Source: Glaciozyma antarctica PI12 (lineage: Eukaryota > Basidiomycota > Microbotryomycetes > Kriegeriales > Camptobasidiaceae). From it: a stretch of DNA of 64,000 bases. The notes below the pieces were generated by a model. The model was given only the letters and a program-made list of their open reading frames with translations. It was not told the origin of the DNA and ran no database searches. A program made the position numbers and the translations under genes. The number at the start of each line of letters is the position of its first letter. Positions within the stretch are counted from its first letter, which is position 1. The DNA lies in the NCBI GenBank assembly GCA_002917775.1, contig KZ627154.1, positions 561,474 to 625,473 of the forward strand. The letters run 5' to 3'. This document shows, in pieces, positions 2,986 to 26,206 of this stretch.

Positions 2986-4843
2986 CTAATCTGACCCTCC
3001 AGGAGTCCTGCTCCTCCCCGACGGCTCAAAGGAGCGGTACGAAGGCGCGTCGGCGGAATAAGCGTTCTGAGGGCTTGGGACGCGGGCGAAGGGATCTTCT
3101 TGAGCGAGGATGTCGAGAGAGGAGGTAGGGATTGCGGGGAGGGTCGACTGGTATGGGATGGAATAGTGGTCTTGAGGAGGGGGTGGGTAGATGTTGTGAG
3201 GCGGTGGGTAGGGAGCGGAGGAAGGGCCGAGGTACGGGTCGTCTGCGAGGAGTCAGCGAGGTTTGGCAGCGAGGGAGGGTGAACGTACAGTAGCCTCCTG
3301 CGCCGGTGGAAGAAGCTCCGTACCCCTCTGGGAGGTTCTCGTACGTGTTCACGCTCTCCGTCCTCGAATGTCCTCCCCAAGCACTCTCCTCGTGATCGCC
3401 CATCTCGACGCCTGCGCCGCCGGTGCGTCGAGTGCCGAGAGGGTTGAGCGTAGAAGCTTGCGCCGAGATCGTTTGGCCGTCGGGCTGCAGTTCGGGCCAC
3501 TTGAATTCTTCGGTGTCGTCGTCGAGTGAGTCGAAGCGTTTTTGGGTGCAGCGCCAGACGATGAAAATGACGGCGCAGAGAACTACGATGCCCTGCGAAG
3601 TGGCGTTAGTGATCGGGATCGCAGCGAGAGAAGCAGGAAGGCGGACTCCGACGACACCCTGCGTTCGCATAATCGTCAGTATTCGGTTGTTGGAGGAGCA
3701 AGAGAGGAGAGAGTGACGCACACCAACGATTCCCCAAGTCTTGCCCGTGTTCGACCCCGACGCCTTTGGAGTCGAGGACTGAATCACCCCAGTCGTAGTG
3801 CTAGTCGTTCCGTCCGAGTTGGTGACCACGCTCGTGTACGTGCTGAGAATTTCGGATTCGGCTGCAAAGGAGAGGCATGAGCGGAGGTCCCGAGAAGCGA
3901 GAGCCGACGAGCGCGTGGCTTACAGGTTGCAGCACTAATCGGTGCGCTCGTCAAAGTGGTGGGAGAGGCAGTGGTAGCGGTCGTCGTTAGGGCGGTGGAC
4001 GTGGTGGTTTGCGCATCGTCGAGTCGTCGAGTCAGAGGTAGGCGCCGTCGTGGGTTCGGTCGGCTGTGCGGTCGTCTCCTGCGTCGTCTGCTCCGTCGTT
4101 GGTTGTGCCGTAGTTTCTGCAAAGAATACAGTGAGTCACTTTCCGTAATCACGCGCCGATAGAGATTGTGGTTGCGCCTTCGCAGCGGATCCTCCGAGTC
4201 GGCCTCCCAGCTCGCAATGGAGCGTGTAGTCCCCCTGCAGGTCCCAAATCACTGCTCCCATCCCATCTGACTGCCTCCCACTTTCGAGAGAAGCTGCCAG
4301 GAGATCGATTGCGCTGAGACCAGCTGGGTCCACCGGCCCCCCGCCCTTGGCGACGTCCTTGCACAGCTCGAGCAGCACTGGACGAGCAAAGATCCCGTCG
4401 AAGCGATGGTGCAGCTCCGTCAGCTTCGACTCCCGAAATTCAGGCTCCGCCCCCTCCCGAATCCTCCCCAACCAGCTCCTCTCAAAAAAAAGACGCCCCT
4501 GGGCCCGAACGCATCGCATCGCCCCCTTTGTCACGTCGTACTCACCAGCTGTAGTCGTAGCAGCCGTCGTAGTCGGCACCGTAGTCTCGCTGGTAGTCTG
4601 CTGTGTCGTCTGAGCCGTCGTTTCGGCCGTGGTCGTGCCGGTGGTGTCCTGGCGACGCTCGAGGGCGAGGAGCTGGGGCGGGAGAACGGTGGTTGAGCGA
4701 GCGGTGGCGGCGGTGCGGAGGATGCGGGAGGGGGTGGAGCTGAGCTGCTGGAGTGCAGTCGCTTCTGGAACGGCGAGAAGGAGGAGTTGAACGATGAGGC
4801 CGAGCTGGGGTACTGAGCTCCTCCGAGTCGAGTGAAGGCGCAT
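2986..4843 (-). CDS. Thr-rich single-pass surface protein, copy A (sensor- or mucin-like)
   Basis: The start at 4843 gives a signal peptide (hydrophobic LIVQLLLLAVPEATA), then a Ser/Thr-rich stalk, one membrane helix near GIVVLCAVIFIVW followed by basic RCTQKRF, and a cytosolic tail with WPELQPDGQ, STLNPLGTRRTGGAG and a tyrosine/proline-rich end (DPYLGPSSAPYPPPHNIYPP). This architecture resembles Wsc/Mid2-type wall sensors, but no family was recognised. The first intron is unusually long (4117-4545, 429 nt) and phase 1. A 12-nt exon (3647-3658) coding GVVG precedes the helix. All of this is shared with a paralogue at 24288-26206. Within exon 2 the Thr-rich reading frame changes by one base near 4011-4030, and no GT lies there to allow an intron, so this copy carries either a sequence error or a real frameshift in the stalk. 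Function is inference. Confidence 0.75.
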
Positions 4844-19209: not shown

Positions 19210-21538
19210 CTACTCGCTCGCCTCAATCCCAAACGTCTTCCTGTAGAACGCCAACTCCGCCTCCGTCGCCCTCTTCTTCGAATCCGCCCTCCTGAACCCA
19301 TGTCCCTCTCCCTCAAACATGATCATCTCGGCACTCCCACCCGCTTTCCTAATCGTCTCGACCATAATAGTCGCCTGAGCCGGGGGTACGACTCGGTCCT
19401 CAGTCCCCTGGAGGACGAGGAGAGGCGCGGAAATGTGGGCGGCGTTGTTGATGGGAGAGCGGTCGTGGTAATTGGCGGGAACTTCCTCGGGAGTACCGCC
19501 GAGGAGGTTGAAGAGGTACTGGGATTCGAACTGCGAAAGTGGATGAGTGGTGGAAGTGGGAGGAGAGGTAGGGACGCACCTTGTGGGTGTCGCCGGCGAG
19601 GAGCGCGAGATCGGAGACGCCGTAGAGGCTCGTTCCTGCTCCGAAAACCTTGCCAGCACACAGCGCAGCAAGCACCGTAAATCCACCTGCACACGATCAT
19701 CAGCAAGCGAGCGAGTGGAGAAAAAGCAAGAGAGTCGACGCACCAGCACTACCGCCAGTGATCGCCACGCGCTTTGCATCCGCCTTGCCCTCCTTGACGA
19801 GGTATTCGACGCACGCAATCGTATCCTGCACATCGACGATCCCCCAGTTCTTGTCGAGTCGCTTGCGGAACTGCCGACCGAAGCCAGTCGACCCGCCGTA
19901 GTTGACGTCGACGAAGGCAAAGCCTCGGGAGGTGAAGAACTGGACTAGCCAGTCGAGGCCAGACTTTGCAGAGCTCGTGGGACCGCCTAGAACGAGATCA
20001 GCGAACTTTTCGAGAAAAGAAAGGAGGGAACGTACCATGGCAGCGAACGACGAGAGGGGGGAGCTCACCATCGAGTCCCACTGCACGCTTGTTCGCAGGC
20101 TCGTAGAACGTCGCGTACGCCACCTGATCGTCCGACTCGCCCGCCGCCGGCTTAGTGGGGTAGGTGATGGCCTTCCCCTCGGAGATGTAGTCCTTGTCGA
20201 CGCTCGCGCTCGACGAGCTCTTGAGCACTTCGACGCTGACGTCCTTCTCGCCCAGCGTGAGAATCGAGAGGAATGCAGGAGAGGCTGAAGGAGATCCGGT
20301 CACGAGGAGCGAGGTCGGGGAGAGAGTGCGGAGGGAGGCGATGGATTGGTACGGCGTGTCGAGGAGGGTGGAGGTGCGGGAAACGAGGTCGATAACGCGG
20401 AGCCGACCTTTCGAAGCTACTGAGATCCACTTGTTCGGCGCGAGGGAAGCGTTCGTGCTCTGCCCGAGTACCCAGTCCGGTCCTGCGAAGGAATCAGCAC
20501 CTCACTCCGCAGAACGAATAGCACAACTCACCTCCTGCATCCGCACCCGTCGGCTCCTCCAGCACTAATCGCACTCCACCCTCCTGCGTCCATTCATAAA
20601 GCTCGTAGAACCCCGTACGATCGCTCAAGAACAGCAGCTTCTCCTCGTCCTCCGCCCAGCGCGGCTGGCTGACGCTCTCGACGCCCTTCCCCTCTCCAGC
20701 AACTTTCTTCGCACTGCCAGCCTTGAAGACGTTCTCCAGATCCACCTCTCCATCCTTTAACCCCACCTCCGCAACCCAGAGCTCGCTCCCCTCCCACGGC
20801 ATATCGGGGTGCTTCCATTGAATCCAGCAGATTCTGCCTCCGGCAGACCAGCGCGGGGAGGAGTAGAAATCGGTTCCAGAGACGACGGGGTAAAGAGTCG
20901 AGGTGGGGAGGGAGAGGAGGACGATCGAGTTGAGCACGGCGGAGGGGAGGTCGGTCGTGTGGTCCTCCAGGATGGATAGGATTAGGGAGGGGTTGGTAGG
21001 GTGAGGGGAGAGGTCGGCGTAGCGGTTGACGGAACTCTCTGCGAGGGCGTTAGGGGCGTTTGGGGAGGTGGGAGGGAGCGCGCACCTGGCGAGACCTGCG
21101 CAGGAGTGCCCCAGGCTCCCCCCGCGTGGTCGACCTTGTAGAGCGGTCCTTCGACAGAGCTGAACACGACACTCGTTCCCATCACCGCAGCGCAGGCTCC
21201 GCCATATTCCTGCAGCACTGGCTCAGCTTCATCCACCTCTCGAAGCCCAGAGATGAGCTCACATGTACCCTCGTGCGGGCGTTCCACTTCTCCTCCGGAA
21301 GCACCTCCTGCACCTTGCCATCGATCCGCGAGACCAGCGCGTTCCTCCCTCCTTGCTCTGGTCGCTGTTCCGTCCAAACGAGGGCCTTGGGACCCACGTA
21401 GTTGTCCCCTAGGGCGATGGCGGAGGCTAGCACGAGGTCGGTTGAAAGTGGGGAAGGCCAGGCTCCGTAGGGCAGCGGCGTCTTTTGAGTCATGCTGGAG
21501 AGAAGGCGGCTGGAAGCAGTGAAGGCTCTGCTGAGCAT
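19210..21538 (-). CDS. S9-family serine peptidase (prolyl oligopeptidase superfamily)
   Basis: Alpha/beta-hydrolase peptidase with an N-terminal beta-propeller, like acylaminoacyl peptidases and dipeptidyl peptidases. Catalytic serine is in ITGGSAGGFTVLAALC, the aspartate in LQGTEDRVVPPAQA and the histidine in FEGEGHGFRRAD. FVDVNYGGSTGFGRQFRKRL is characteristic of the family. Propeller repeats include FYSSPRWSAGGRICWIQWKH, QPRWAEDEEKLLFLSDRTG and ASLAPNKWISVASKGRLRV. Two in-frame ATGs are close together: 21538 (MLSRAFTASSRLLSS) and 21493 (MTQKTPLPYG). The upstream one adds a basic, serine-rich amphipathic-looking leader that could target mitochondria, while the inner one would give a cytosolic form. 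The gene starts only 86 bases from a divergent acetyltransferase gene. Its substrate is unknown; a protein-quality or peptide-scavenging role is likely. Confidence 0.9.
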
Positions 21539-21624: not shown

Positions 21625-23860
21625 ATGGACAAGTCAGGGATAACGTGCTCGATAGTCCAGCCGACCGAGGACCTCGAGGCACTCGCCTCCATCCAGCTCG
21701 CTGCGTTTGCACCGGGTGAGATCCACCAGGTCATCTTCGGCAAGGTGACCCGAGACGACTTCGTGGCAACCGCGATCCTGCGCCTCCGGGTCGATACGGG
21801 CAAGGATCGAGGACCGAAGCGCGTAGTCAAGGCGGAGCGGGATGGGCAGCTGCTCGGCCTCTCAATCTGGGAGGTCCCGGATGCAGAAGTGGGGCCGGAG
21901 AAGGTGCTGAACAAGGAGGAGGAGGCCGAGCGGAAGCGTCTGCGGTGGCCCAAGGGCACCAACGTTCCGTTGGCGGAGGAGTTCTTCAGCCAGGCGGACG
22001 ACAACGTTACCATTCCTCATTTCCGTTAGTACCGGATGAGCTGATGCGGAGCTCCTCCGCTAACCCTCGAGGGCGCAGATCTCAGCATCCTCGTCGTAGA
22101 TCCTGCACACCAGGGTTCCGGAGCAGGAAGAGCTCTCCTCGACTGGGGTCTCACCCAAGCCGATTCGCAAGGCGTACCCACGTATCTCGAGTCCTCCCCT
22201 ATCGCTCTCCCTCTCTACACCTCTGCGTCCTTTACCCCTGCCCGCCCTCTTATCATTAGCGCTTTCAACGAATCCCTCATCGTACGCTCCGCCTCCTCTC
22301 CTTCCGACCGCGCTGACCCACCCACAGCTTCACCCACTCGTTCGCCTCCCCCCTCCCCCCGTCATCCTCCCCGCTACCCTCGCCGACGTCCCCCATCTCG
22401 CCCGCCTCCACCGTCAAGCCTTTTCTCCCGGAGAAGTCTACCAGCACCTCTTTGCCAACGCCGATGCGGACGAGCTCGACGCACGCATGGCGAAGCGCCT
22501 CGGTTCGCTCATCGGCAAGAAGAAGCATATGGTGCTCAAGGCGGTGAGGGGCGGACGGATTTTGGGGTATGCGTACTATGAGCTGCCGGGGGAGGTGGAG
22601 GAGGAGGTAGAGGAGGAGGGAGCGGGAGGTTTTGCGGCGGGGTCGAATGAGGAGCGGGCGTCGAGCTTCTTTGCGGCGCTTGATGAGCATGCGAAGGAGA
22701 TTCAGGGACCTCACTACCGTGCGTTAAATTACTCTCTGCGTTTCTGGTCGCTGCTGATGGCGTTCTTGCAGACCTCCATATCCTCGCGACCGATCCTGCA
22801 TTCCAGCGGACTGGCGCCGGCATCGGGCTGCTTAAATGGGGCATCGATCGCGCAGAGAAGGAGGGTCTCAACGTTCATCTCGACGCTACGGAAGGTGCGT
22901 CCCCTCTCCAGTTTCACGGAACCGATCTGACCTTTTCCCAGAGGGCCTCCCCGTTTACTTGAAGCGCGGATACGAGCTCTGGGGTCCTCCTCTCTCCCCC
23001 TCCGACGGCTGCGTCTCCGTACGTCCCCTCCACTCCCTCCTCAATCCCCGACTAACCCAGCCCAGGTCCTCCCCATGATCCGTCGCCCAACCCTCACCAT
23101 CTCTCCCGCGACCCTCGACGACGTTCCCACCCTATCCCGGATTCACGTCTCCGCCTTCTCCTGCGGAACCTTTTACCGCTCTCTCTACTCCGCCGTCGCT
23201 CCCGCTTCGCTCGAAGCCCTCTGGGCCAAGCGGTACGCGCGATGGGTCTCTGGCCCCGAATGGAGCGTGTACAAGGCCGTTCGCGCGGGGAAGATCGTCG
23301 GGTTCTCGCATTGGGATTTGCCGGGGGGAAAAGAGGTGCAGGAGGCTCAGGCGGCGGAGGGGGAGGGAACGGGGTTTGCTATGGGGACGAATTTGGAGTT
23401 GGCGAAGGACTTTTATGGGAGGTTGATGGCGCATGAGAAGGAGCTTGGAGGGAAGGGGTATCGTGAGTCTTTCGCTCTTTCTCGTGAGGAGAGGCTGAAC
23501 CGTGGTACAGATCTGCAGAATCTAGCTACGGCGCCAGAGGCCCAGAGGACGGGGGTTGCGAAGGCGTTGTTGAACCACGGACTCGCGATGGCGGACGAGC
23601 AGGGCGGGGACGTCCATTTGGATGCGACGCCTGGTGCGTCACTCCTCAATCCTTTCCAGCGTGGAGACGTTGCTGACGTCGAGTACAGAGGGCGAGCAGG
23701 TGTACGTCAAGGTTGGATTCAAGCGAAACGGTGCCGCTATCGTTGCGAAAGATGGGTCTTTCGAGGTGCGTCTGCTTCTTTGTCTCTCTGTACTTCTTTG
23801 AGCTTACGAGCTGCTCCTCAGGTCCACCCCATGGTCCGCAAGTCGCCTTCGTCGGCGTAG
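21625..23860 (+). CDS. Protein of three tandem GNAT acetyltransferase domains
   Basis: One frame, after removal of eight short introns, gives about 620 residues made of three consecutive GNAT domains of roughly 205 residues. Each has the same order: a VxPATLxDVPxLxRLHxxAF-type opening, an I-LG/VG-F-E/D-P strand, a long acidic insertion, then H[YF]HLxILxxDPxxQxxGxG (the acetyl-CoA binding motif A), a helix xLLxWGLxxAD, a YLxDATPEG-like strand and an exit xHPMVR. The exits are LHPLVRLP, VLPMIRRP and VHPMVRKS. An intron splits the codon before HL in all three copies, another splits the codon before EG in copies 2 and 3, and one precedes xHPMVR in all. Acetyl acceptor is unknown. Three separate genes are unlikely: no stop lies between copies and splicing stays in frame. 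Divergent from the S9 peptidase. Confidence 0.85.
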
Positions 23861-24287
23861 GAGGGGCCTCTCCAATGCTGTCGATGGAGCGGAGATCTCG
23901 ACATCGTTCGCGTGGTGGTGCTGTTTGTTCAACTCGGACGGGGAGCGAAGCTGCGATCGCGACGCGACTCGCCCTCGAAAACGCGCTTTCAAAGTCTGCA
24001 GAGCGGAGGAGCTACGGTGGCAAAAGCCGCGATAAGCGGCGTATCGAGAGAGGGAAAGGCAGACCAGTAGAGCAGAGTAGAGCTGAGCCAACGCACCCAA
24101 AGGGAGAGTGGGGGACAGCGTGCTCCTCTTTCGCCGACCACAACTCTTCCCTTTGTTCAAGCTCTTTCGATTACGACCACGGCGTTCATTCAACACACTT
24201 CAGCCCACAACAGCACGCCCAAACCAACCAGCCTGGTCAAGACCAGCTCTCGCACCCTCTCTCCTTTTCATCGGCCCACCCTCCGCC
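23861..24287. other. Intergenic region upstream of surface protein B
   Basis: About 430 bases: 3' end of the triple-GNAT gene and promoter of the second Thr-rich membrane protein. Pyrimidine- and adenine-rich just before the ATG. No gene seen. Confidence 0.5.
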
Positions 24288-26206
24288 ATGGCGCCATCAC
24301 GACGCAGCAACCGCCTACGCCCCGTCCTCCTCGCCCTCCTCCTCGCCTCCCCCCTCCTCGCCTTCCCCTCTCCCACACCGCCTTCCCACCTTCCACGCCA
24401 ACTAGAGCACGAGCGCCGGCAGCTCGTGGGCGGTATCCTCAGTGGGATCCTGGGGCCTGGCTCGACGGCAGGCCCGACGACGGGGACTACGACGGCGGCT
24501 ACTACGGCGGCGGAGACGACGACGGAGGATACGCCGACGGAGGGGACTACGCGTGAGTCGAGGGCTGTGCATTGTTCGTGCGGGGAGGACGGGGGGCGTG
24601 AGCTCAGGGGCTGAGGGCGTGTGGGATGTTGGTGGAGTGTTGGTGGAGTGCTTTGCGCTTGGGATTAGCTGGTGTGCTTCTCAGGAAGCTCAGTGGCGCG
24701 ATGAAGAACCCGCGTTGATGAGACGTGCGCGTGCGGTGCTCTCGGGCTCGCTGCTGGCGTTCTCTGAGCTCTCGCGGTTGTGGAATGGCAGGGGAGACTT
24801 CATTCTGGTACTTGGGTCTTAGGCCACGCAGGCGGTTCGCTGGCGGGCTGGGTTCAGGAGCTTGTTGGAATGTCGAGCGTGGGTCGGAAGGCGCGACGCC
24901 GTGGGCGCTAGCACTCCCGCAGGTCGCCAAACTTGCAAGGTGCTGTTTTGTTGGAGGGATGCACCTGGGACGACTTGGGGCCGAGCAGAGGGACGAAGGC
25001 AGCTCGATGGGAGGGGAACAGCTCGCTGACCATGACGATTCCGTTCCCTCAGCCGCCACGACGGAAGCCACCACAGCACCGACCACGAGCGCTCCAACCA
25101 CCACGACCTCTAATACTCCGACGAGCACCACCTCTAGTGCTACCACCTCAACCCGTTCGTAACCAGTCGCATTCCGACGCTCGGGCTCTCCCTCATGCAA
25201 CTTTCCTTTAGCAGCTACGGAATCTACCGTCGTTATCGTTACTTCGGTGAGCTCATCACTCCTGCTCGCACTCCTGATCGCACTTCTGGCTTTGAGATAC
25301 TCACTCCCTGCTATAACAGATCATTACCAACGAGGACGGAACGACGCAGACCTCGACTGGAGTTCCTGCAGAGCAGACTGGCGGCAACAGCAGCAGTTCC
25401 AACACTGGAAAGACCTGGGGTATCGTCGGCGTGAGTAGCTCTTCCCATTTAACCCTTTCTGCGAGGTACTGACGAATCTACGAAACGCAGGGTGTCGTCG
25501 GAGTGCGTTCCTCCCCCCTTCGCGGCGTTCTCGCAAACTCACGCTCTTCCGCAGGGTGTCATTGTTCTCGCTGCGATACTCTTCATCATCTGGCGCTGTA
25601 CCCAACGCCGATTCTCCGAGATCGAAGACGGGCGCGACGAGATCAAGTGGCCCGAACTCCAGCCCGACGGTCAGAACGTTTCAGCGGCAACTTCAACGCT
25701 CAACCCCATGGGCACTCGCAGGACGGGCGGAGCGGGGTTTGAGATGGGCGAGAGAGGGGAGAGGGAGGACAGTCAGTGGGGAGACGGGGAGATGGCGAGT
25801 CAGGGGAGCGAGTACTACGACCATCACGATCCGGGGTACGACCAGAGCGGGTACGGCAGTGGGCACGGCGGGAGCTCGTATTGTGCGTTCCTTTTCTCTC
25901 TTCTCAAGCGACGAACCACTAACGACGAACGAACCAGACGACCCCTACCTCGGTCCCTCCTCCGCGCCCCACCCGCCTCCTCAGAACATCTACCCCCCAC
26001 CTCCCCGCTCCTACTCGCCCTACTACCAAACCGCCGACGCCTCCAACTCGTCTCTCAATTCATACCAGGCCCCTCCGACGATCTCGGTTCAGGGACCGGG
26101 AGGACAGCTCAGGAGCCATTCGCCCGCGTCGGAGGGGATGATGGGACCGCTGAGAGGAGAATCGAGGAGGGGAACGACGCCGCCGTTGCCGGGGCCGTTT
26201 GTGTAG
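24288..26206 (+). CDS. Thr-rich single-pass surface protein, copy B (sensor- or mucin-like)
   Basis: Paralogue of the protein at 2986-4843, on the opposite strand about 20 kb away. It has a signal peptide (VLLALLLASPLLAFP), a Thr-rich stalk, a glycine-rich membrane helix (GGVIVLAAILFIIW), basic RCTQRRF and a tail with KWPELQPDGQ, STLNPMGTRRTGGAG and DPYLGPSSAPHPPPQNIYPP. Its first intron is also long (24553-25052, 500 nt) and phase 1 at the same place, and the 12-nt exon coding GVVG recurs at 25491-25502. The reading frame is intact. The tail conservation between copies (WPELQPDGQ, GTRRTGGAG, GPSSAPxPPP) is much higher than in the stalk, so the cytosolic part is probably the constrained, signalling or binding part. 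A wall-stress sensor role is a guess from architecture. Confidence 0.8.
25491..25502 (+). other. 12-nt microexon of surface protein B
   Basis: GGTGTCGTCGGA lies between an aacgcag acceptor and a gtgcgt donor and codes GVVG at the start of the membrane helix. The identical 12 bases form the equivalent exon of the paralogue (3647-3658, minus strand). Its length is a multiple of three, so inclusion or skipping leaves the frame unchanged. Confidence 0.75.

Follow-up and report, generated by a model that had tools for sequence, protein, structure and literature searches.

The question raised by this locus is whether positions 21625-23860 of the window, i.e., the whole stretch of 64,000 nucleotides of Glaciozyma antarctica PI12 DNA that we analyzed, encode a single protein with three tandem GNAT domains or several separate proteins and, if a single protein, how its three copies arose and what they might do. 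We observe that three homologous GNAT domains are encoded by one open frame, and the sections below set out the evidence for this and the readings that it allows.

Gene model and splicing

The coding region begins at an ATG at 21625 on the forward strand, ends with the last base of a stop codon at 23860, and is divided into nine exons by eight introns. When spliced, it forms a coding sequence of 1830 nt, i.e., 610 codons including the stop, which encodes 609 amino acids in one frame with no internal stops; an in-frame stop is present 93 nt upstream of the ATG. The initial annotation of this DNA had proposed eight introns and a single frame running through three domains, and the spliced sequence bears this out, in that no stop is present between the domains. 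The features of the locus, taken from the splice model and, for intron columns and active-site residues, from the alignment of the domains, are as follows:

21625-23860 (+): whole coding region, nine exons, 609 aa, single open frame
21625-22024 (+): exon 1, N-terminal half of domain 1
22025-22078 (+): intron 1, 54 nt, phase 1, at the column 145 site common to the three domains
22079-22281 (+): exon 2, domain 1 acetyl-CoA loop QGSGAG (residues 145-150), E171 and Y180
22282-22327 (+): intron 2, 46 nt, phase 0, at the common column 213 site
22328-22718 (+): exon 3, domain 1 tail HPLVR directly into the N-terminal half of domain 2
22719-22771 (+): intron 3, 53 nt, phase 1, at the common column 145 site
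22772-22894 (+): exon 4, domain 2 acetyl-CoA loop QRTGAG (residues 343-348) and D369
22895-22941 (+): intron 4, 47 nt, phase 1, at column 186, present in domains 2 and 3
22942-23018 (+): exon 5, domain 2, Y378
23019-23065 (+): intron 5, 47 nt, phase 0, at the common column 213 site
23066-23462 (+): exon 6, domain 2 tail LPMIR directly into the N-terminal half of domain 3
23463-23510 (+): intron 6, 48 nt, phase 1, at the common column 145 site
23511-23633 (+): exon 7, domain 3 acetyl-CoA loop QRTGVA (residues 542-547) and D568
23634-23688 (+): intron 7, 55 nt, phase 1, at column 186, as in domain 2
23689-23765 (+): exon 8, domain 3, Y577
23766-23821 (+): intron 8, 56 nt, phase 0, at the common column 213 site
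23822-23860 (+): exon 9, tail HPMVR and stop

All eight introns are short (46-56 nt), a type that we take to be compatible with a fungus, and all eight start with GT and end with CAG. Seven contain a CTNAY motif whose A is separated from the end of the intron by 10-15 nt; the eighth has CTGAA instead, at 12 nt. For comparison, CTNAY occurs within a wider range, 8-40 nt upstream, at 251 of the 1489 YAG sites on the forward strand of the window. Third-position GC of the coding sequence is 0.741 overall, versus 0.579 for all intron bases. Intron 6 (48 nt) contains no in-frame stop; if it were retained, domain 3 would be longer by 16 residues, placed immediately ahead of the acetyl-CoA strand.

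Homology of the three domains

Cutting the protein after each PMVR-type tail gives domains of 207, 197 and 205 aa (residues 1-207, 208-404 and 405-609), with almost no linker between them, since each tail is followed within a few residues by the first strand of the next domain. A Pfam search with the full protein identified three GNAT stretches (PF13673, E 2.9e-23; PF00583, 2.8e-20; PF13508, 3.3e-19). Each domain searched alone, a check proposed for PF00583 and PF13673 in the initial annotation, scores above the gathering thresholds of both families, and domain 3 alone also passes that of PF13508; NCBIfam gave no match near its cut-offs. Pairwise identity is 62/186 (33%) between domains 1 and 2, 55/188 (29%) between 1 and 3, and 88/196 (45%) between 2 and 3, with alignment scores 33-70 standard deviations above shuffled sequences (200 shuffles for each pair).

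The domains are homologous throughout, and these results agree with the earlier description of three complete GNAT domains of about 205 residues, each with an acetyl-CoA motif (QGSGAG, QRTGAG and QRTGVA). Two motifs described as present in all copies proved less uniform: the HL-x-ILxxDP strand is found in domains 1 and 2, but domain 3 reads HLQNLATAPE, and the HPMVR tail is exact in domain 3, but is LPMIR in domain 2 and HPLVR in domain 1.

Shared intron positions

Placing the introns on the domain alignment demonstrated that two sites, column 145 (phase 1) and column 213 (phase 0), are occupied in all three domains, and that a third, column 186 (phase 1), is occupied in domains 2 and 3 only, with exon 2 of domain 1 running uninterrupted through this site. 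The probability of such a coincidence is about 5e-13, a rough figure that assumes 600 equally likely sites per domain. The shared columns and phases therefore indicate that the three copies descend from one unit that already contained at least two of these introns. Introns at equivalent codons and phases had been claimed previously; the columns and phases are indeed the same, but the introns described as lying before HL and before EG split a codon (phase 1) rather than preceding it. Chance or misreading as the source of the three-domain pattern was considered, and is ruled out by the homology, intron and splice statistics.

One gene or several, and the origin of the copies

On the sequence evidence, this is very probably one gene encoding a 609-residue protein, with three complete GNAT domains arranged head to tail. 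In each of the two exons that span a domain boundary, the coding frame contains no stop, and the other two forward frames do (0/2/4 and 0/2/1 stops). Domain 2 begins at residue 208, and after the initial methionine no other is encountered in frame until residue 255, 48 residues into that domain. Domain 2 thus cannot be made alone from this frame, and, because no stop separates the domains and no start is present near the beginning of domain 2, three independent genes are unlikely; we rejected independent genes as the main reading on these grounds. A weaker form of this idea, in which two or three adjacent genes are present or separate proteins are made by alternative splicing, e.g., domains 1-2 apart from domain 3 when intron 5 is retained, we consider improbable. 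Retention of intron 5, the only arrangement we found that could split the protein, would bring the frame to a TGA (23076-23078) after 417 residues; this stop shares bases with an ATG at 23075 (Met402, as ATGA), a possible start for a complete domain 3. However, intron 5 has good signals (GTACGT, and CTAAC 10 nt before its end) and matches introns 2 and 8 in column and phase, its retention would replace LPMIR by a different tail on domain 2, and domain 2 would still have no start of its own. We regard a pseudogene, or an assembly artefact in which tandem copies were collapsed or misjoined, as very improbable indeed; nothing observed speaks for it, and against it stand nine exons in one frame, splice sites in place and third-position GC of 0.725-0.756 in the three domains; the copies differ at more than half of their positions, which excludes a recent assembly duplication.

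A single gene of this kind could have formed in more than one way. The initial annotation proposed that an intron-bearing unit was duplicated inside one gene, and the part of this proposal that stands is common descent from one such unit, with duplication inside one gene not settled against a fusion of paralogous genes. Fusion, by which one protein would have formed by joining genes that had already diverged, is a serious possibility that we nevertheless place somewhat below even. It fits between-domain identities of only 29-45% and domains with seemingly full N and C ends, as for genes joined end to end, and the intron sites could be common to the copies because single-domain relatives had them too. 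On the other side, there is no direct evidence for fusion, and a search with the three-domain profile against six-frame pieces of at least 25 residues gave seven matches (E ≤10), all inside this gene, with no further GNAT gene in the window, and therefore no cluster of single genes left beside it. A tree of five sequences joins domains 2 and 3 (support 90) and leaves domain 1 outside them; additional fungal paralogues could separate the three domains from one another. Given this grouping, gain of the column 186 intron on the stem of domains 2 and 3 is as parsimonious as its loss from copy 1; the intron described earlier as missing from copy 1 is indeed absent there, but loss is only one of these two options. 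The history that we propose would start from a single-domain, intron-bearing ancestor related to the 2QEC/puromycin N-acetyltransferase type, which would have undergone tandem duplication and joining; domain 1 would have been the first to branch off, and domains 2 and 3 would have parted later.

Neighbouring genes

A divergent gene for a peptidase of the S9 (prolyl oligopeptidase) family is present at 19210-21538 (-), where two unbroken pieces match PF00326 (3.6e-21 and 1.2e-17), and upstream pieces without a Pfam match are joined to it by inference. Its possible starts, 21538 or 21493, are 86-131 bp from the GNAT start, so that the two genes perhaps share a promoter. Elsewhere in the window, tblastx relates a gene at about 24200-26050 (+) to another at about 3130-4750 (-), at E 4.75e-60 and with 60% over 85 aa in the best stretch; by eye, these encode Ser/Thr-rich proteins with one membrane span, and the pieces of this pair that were scanned gave no Pfam match.

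Relationship to 2QEC and puromycin N-acetyltransferase

When the three-domain profile was compared with sequences of solved structure, the closest was 2QEC, listed as an HPA2-related acetyltransferase, over positions 3-192 (190 of 200; E 6.3e-16), and puromycin N-acetyltransferase (PAC, PDB 7K09) matched over positions 6-183 (E 7.7e-07). Both matches thus span almost the full domain. A further 44 were obtained up to E 10; the majority of these lie chiefly in the acetyl-CoA half, and some are clearly due to chance. Each of these two proteins is one GNAT domain of about 205 residues, whereas three are present here, and their identity to the three domains is 23-29%. PAC has a helical hairpin inserted between strands 3 and 4, and the stretch found here at that place aligns to it with few gaps. 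An AlphaFold2 model of one contiguous piece of domain 3 has a mean pLDDT of 51.5; in this low-confidence model the strand-helix order fits the N half only, the expected strands of the acetyl-CoA (C) half are absent, and the hairpin stretch forms helices at 89-101 and 109-122, mostly at pLDDT below 50.

According to PMC7933286, CoA is bound in PAC by the QxxGxG loop, the role of general acid very probably falls to Y171, and E161 is a candidate distal base, although the authors think that a general base may be unnecessary for puromycin. All three domains here likewise contain a loop of this kind, QxxGx[G/A], and the positions of PAC E161 and Y171 are occupied by E171/Y180, D369/Y378 and D568/Y577. 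PAC Tyr30, which is near the active site, is Gly in all three domains, and nothing therefore points to puromycin as the substrate. The chemistry looks PAC-like, and the acceptor is probably another compound; we do not class this gene with the puromycin enzymes, although its product may act in a similar way.

Active sites and proposed function

In each domain, the Q-x-x-G-x-G/A loop is the predicted site of acetyl-CoA binding. Transfer of the acetyl group to an amine would then be direct: the conserved tyrosine would donate a proton to the CoA thiolate, and the E/D would assist at the amine. From the PAC-like type of these domains, our guess is that histones are not the acceptor, and that a small amine or amino compound probably is. 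Divergence of the acceptor pockets is also probable; the protein may therefore act on two or more substrates, or else the weaker domains may have a structural or regulatory role as partners.

Catalysis in each of the three domains is predicted from three aligned features. The Q/R-x-x-G-x-G/A loop, the E/D and the Tyr are present in three of three domains, so that three active sites are possible; in domain 3, however, the loop ends in GVA and AP replaces DP, and domain 1 has YTSASF where domains 2 and 3 have YxxxG[YF], differences that may have weakened or abolished activity. It is nearly an even prospect, if slightly short of one, that catalysis is confined to a single domain, the others being pseudo-GNAT partners that help to form the substrate groove or hold acetyl-CoA but do not consume it, a reading compatible with a single gene. 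This would follow the general rule of published tandem GNATs, as these are presented in PMC12219266, PMC10936415, PMC9054821 and PMC4680927, and would fit the GVA loop and the YTSASF segment, but leaves the loop, acid and tyrosine retained in all three domains to be accounted for. A GNAT with three active sites, in which each domain would have working acetyl-CoA and acceptor sites, the pockets would have diverged, and no domain would be inserted between strands 6 and 7, we put forward more tentatively, as a rather unlikely reading. If it were true, one chain would acetylate several amines, or several positions of one polyamine-like molecule, with a topology unlike that of the double-GNATs.

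Relatives in other collections

Searches of prokaryote genome contigs (67 and 587 pattern stretches) and of viral contigs (43, 600 and 11 pattern stretches) confirmed no relatives of this protein (tblastn, E 1e-3), and plasmid records gave one weak partial match, covering 64 of 197 residues at 30.6% identity (E 8e-4). These scans cover prokaryotes, viruses and plasmids, and say nothing on the spread of the protein among fungi.

Comparison with multi-domain GNATs

Several known proteins likewise contain more than one GNAT domain per chain, for example, mycothiol synthase (MshD), N-myristoyltransferase, HisAT/NAT16, PamZ and the GNAT region of the fungal RmNag. In characterized two-domain GNATs, typically one domain is active, as outlined in PMC12219266 and PMC10936415; the latter also states that an earlier report of two active domains in tandem enzymes has since been revised, and PMC4680927 describes one functional domain in the two-GNAT region of a fungal glycosidase. 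What differs in the protein described here is the presence of three domains rather than two, with the signature residues in all of them. The arrangement of the domains also differs: PMC12219266 places the second domain of double-GNATs as an insert in the first, between its strands 6 and 7, whereas here each domain would be completed by a PMVR-type tail, taken as its last strand, ahead of the start of the next, in what looks like a simple head-to-tail order, although strands may be swapped between domains. The three-domain profile matched MshD entries only weakly (E 0.33), and the tandem GNAT 6WQB over the acetyl-CoA half (E 7e-05).

Several GNAT domains without a regulatory domain are also described for the class III or type V lysine acetyltransferases, such as Eis (PMC6456759, PMC11254643). 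These share with the present protein the possession of several GNAT domains but differ from it in that they are about 400 aa long and prokaryotic, as characterized in PMC6456759. No entry named Eis is present among the 46 solved sequences matched by the three-domain profile, and weak matches were obtained to GNAT entries of 388-396 residues (2OZG, E 0.031; 3N7Z, E 0.57).

Among the papers listed by our searches of an open-licence library, we saw none on a protein with three GNAT domains. Why tandem GNATs were duplicated is called unclear in PMC10936415, since one domain alone appears to work. Compared with these known systems, a three-copy chain that carries the signatures in every domain, and whose introns record the duplication, would allow a direct test of what repeating the GNAT fold is for.
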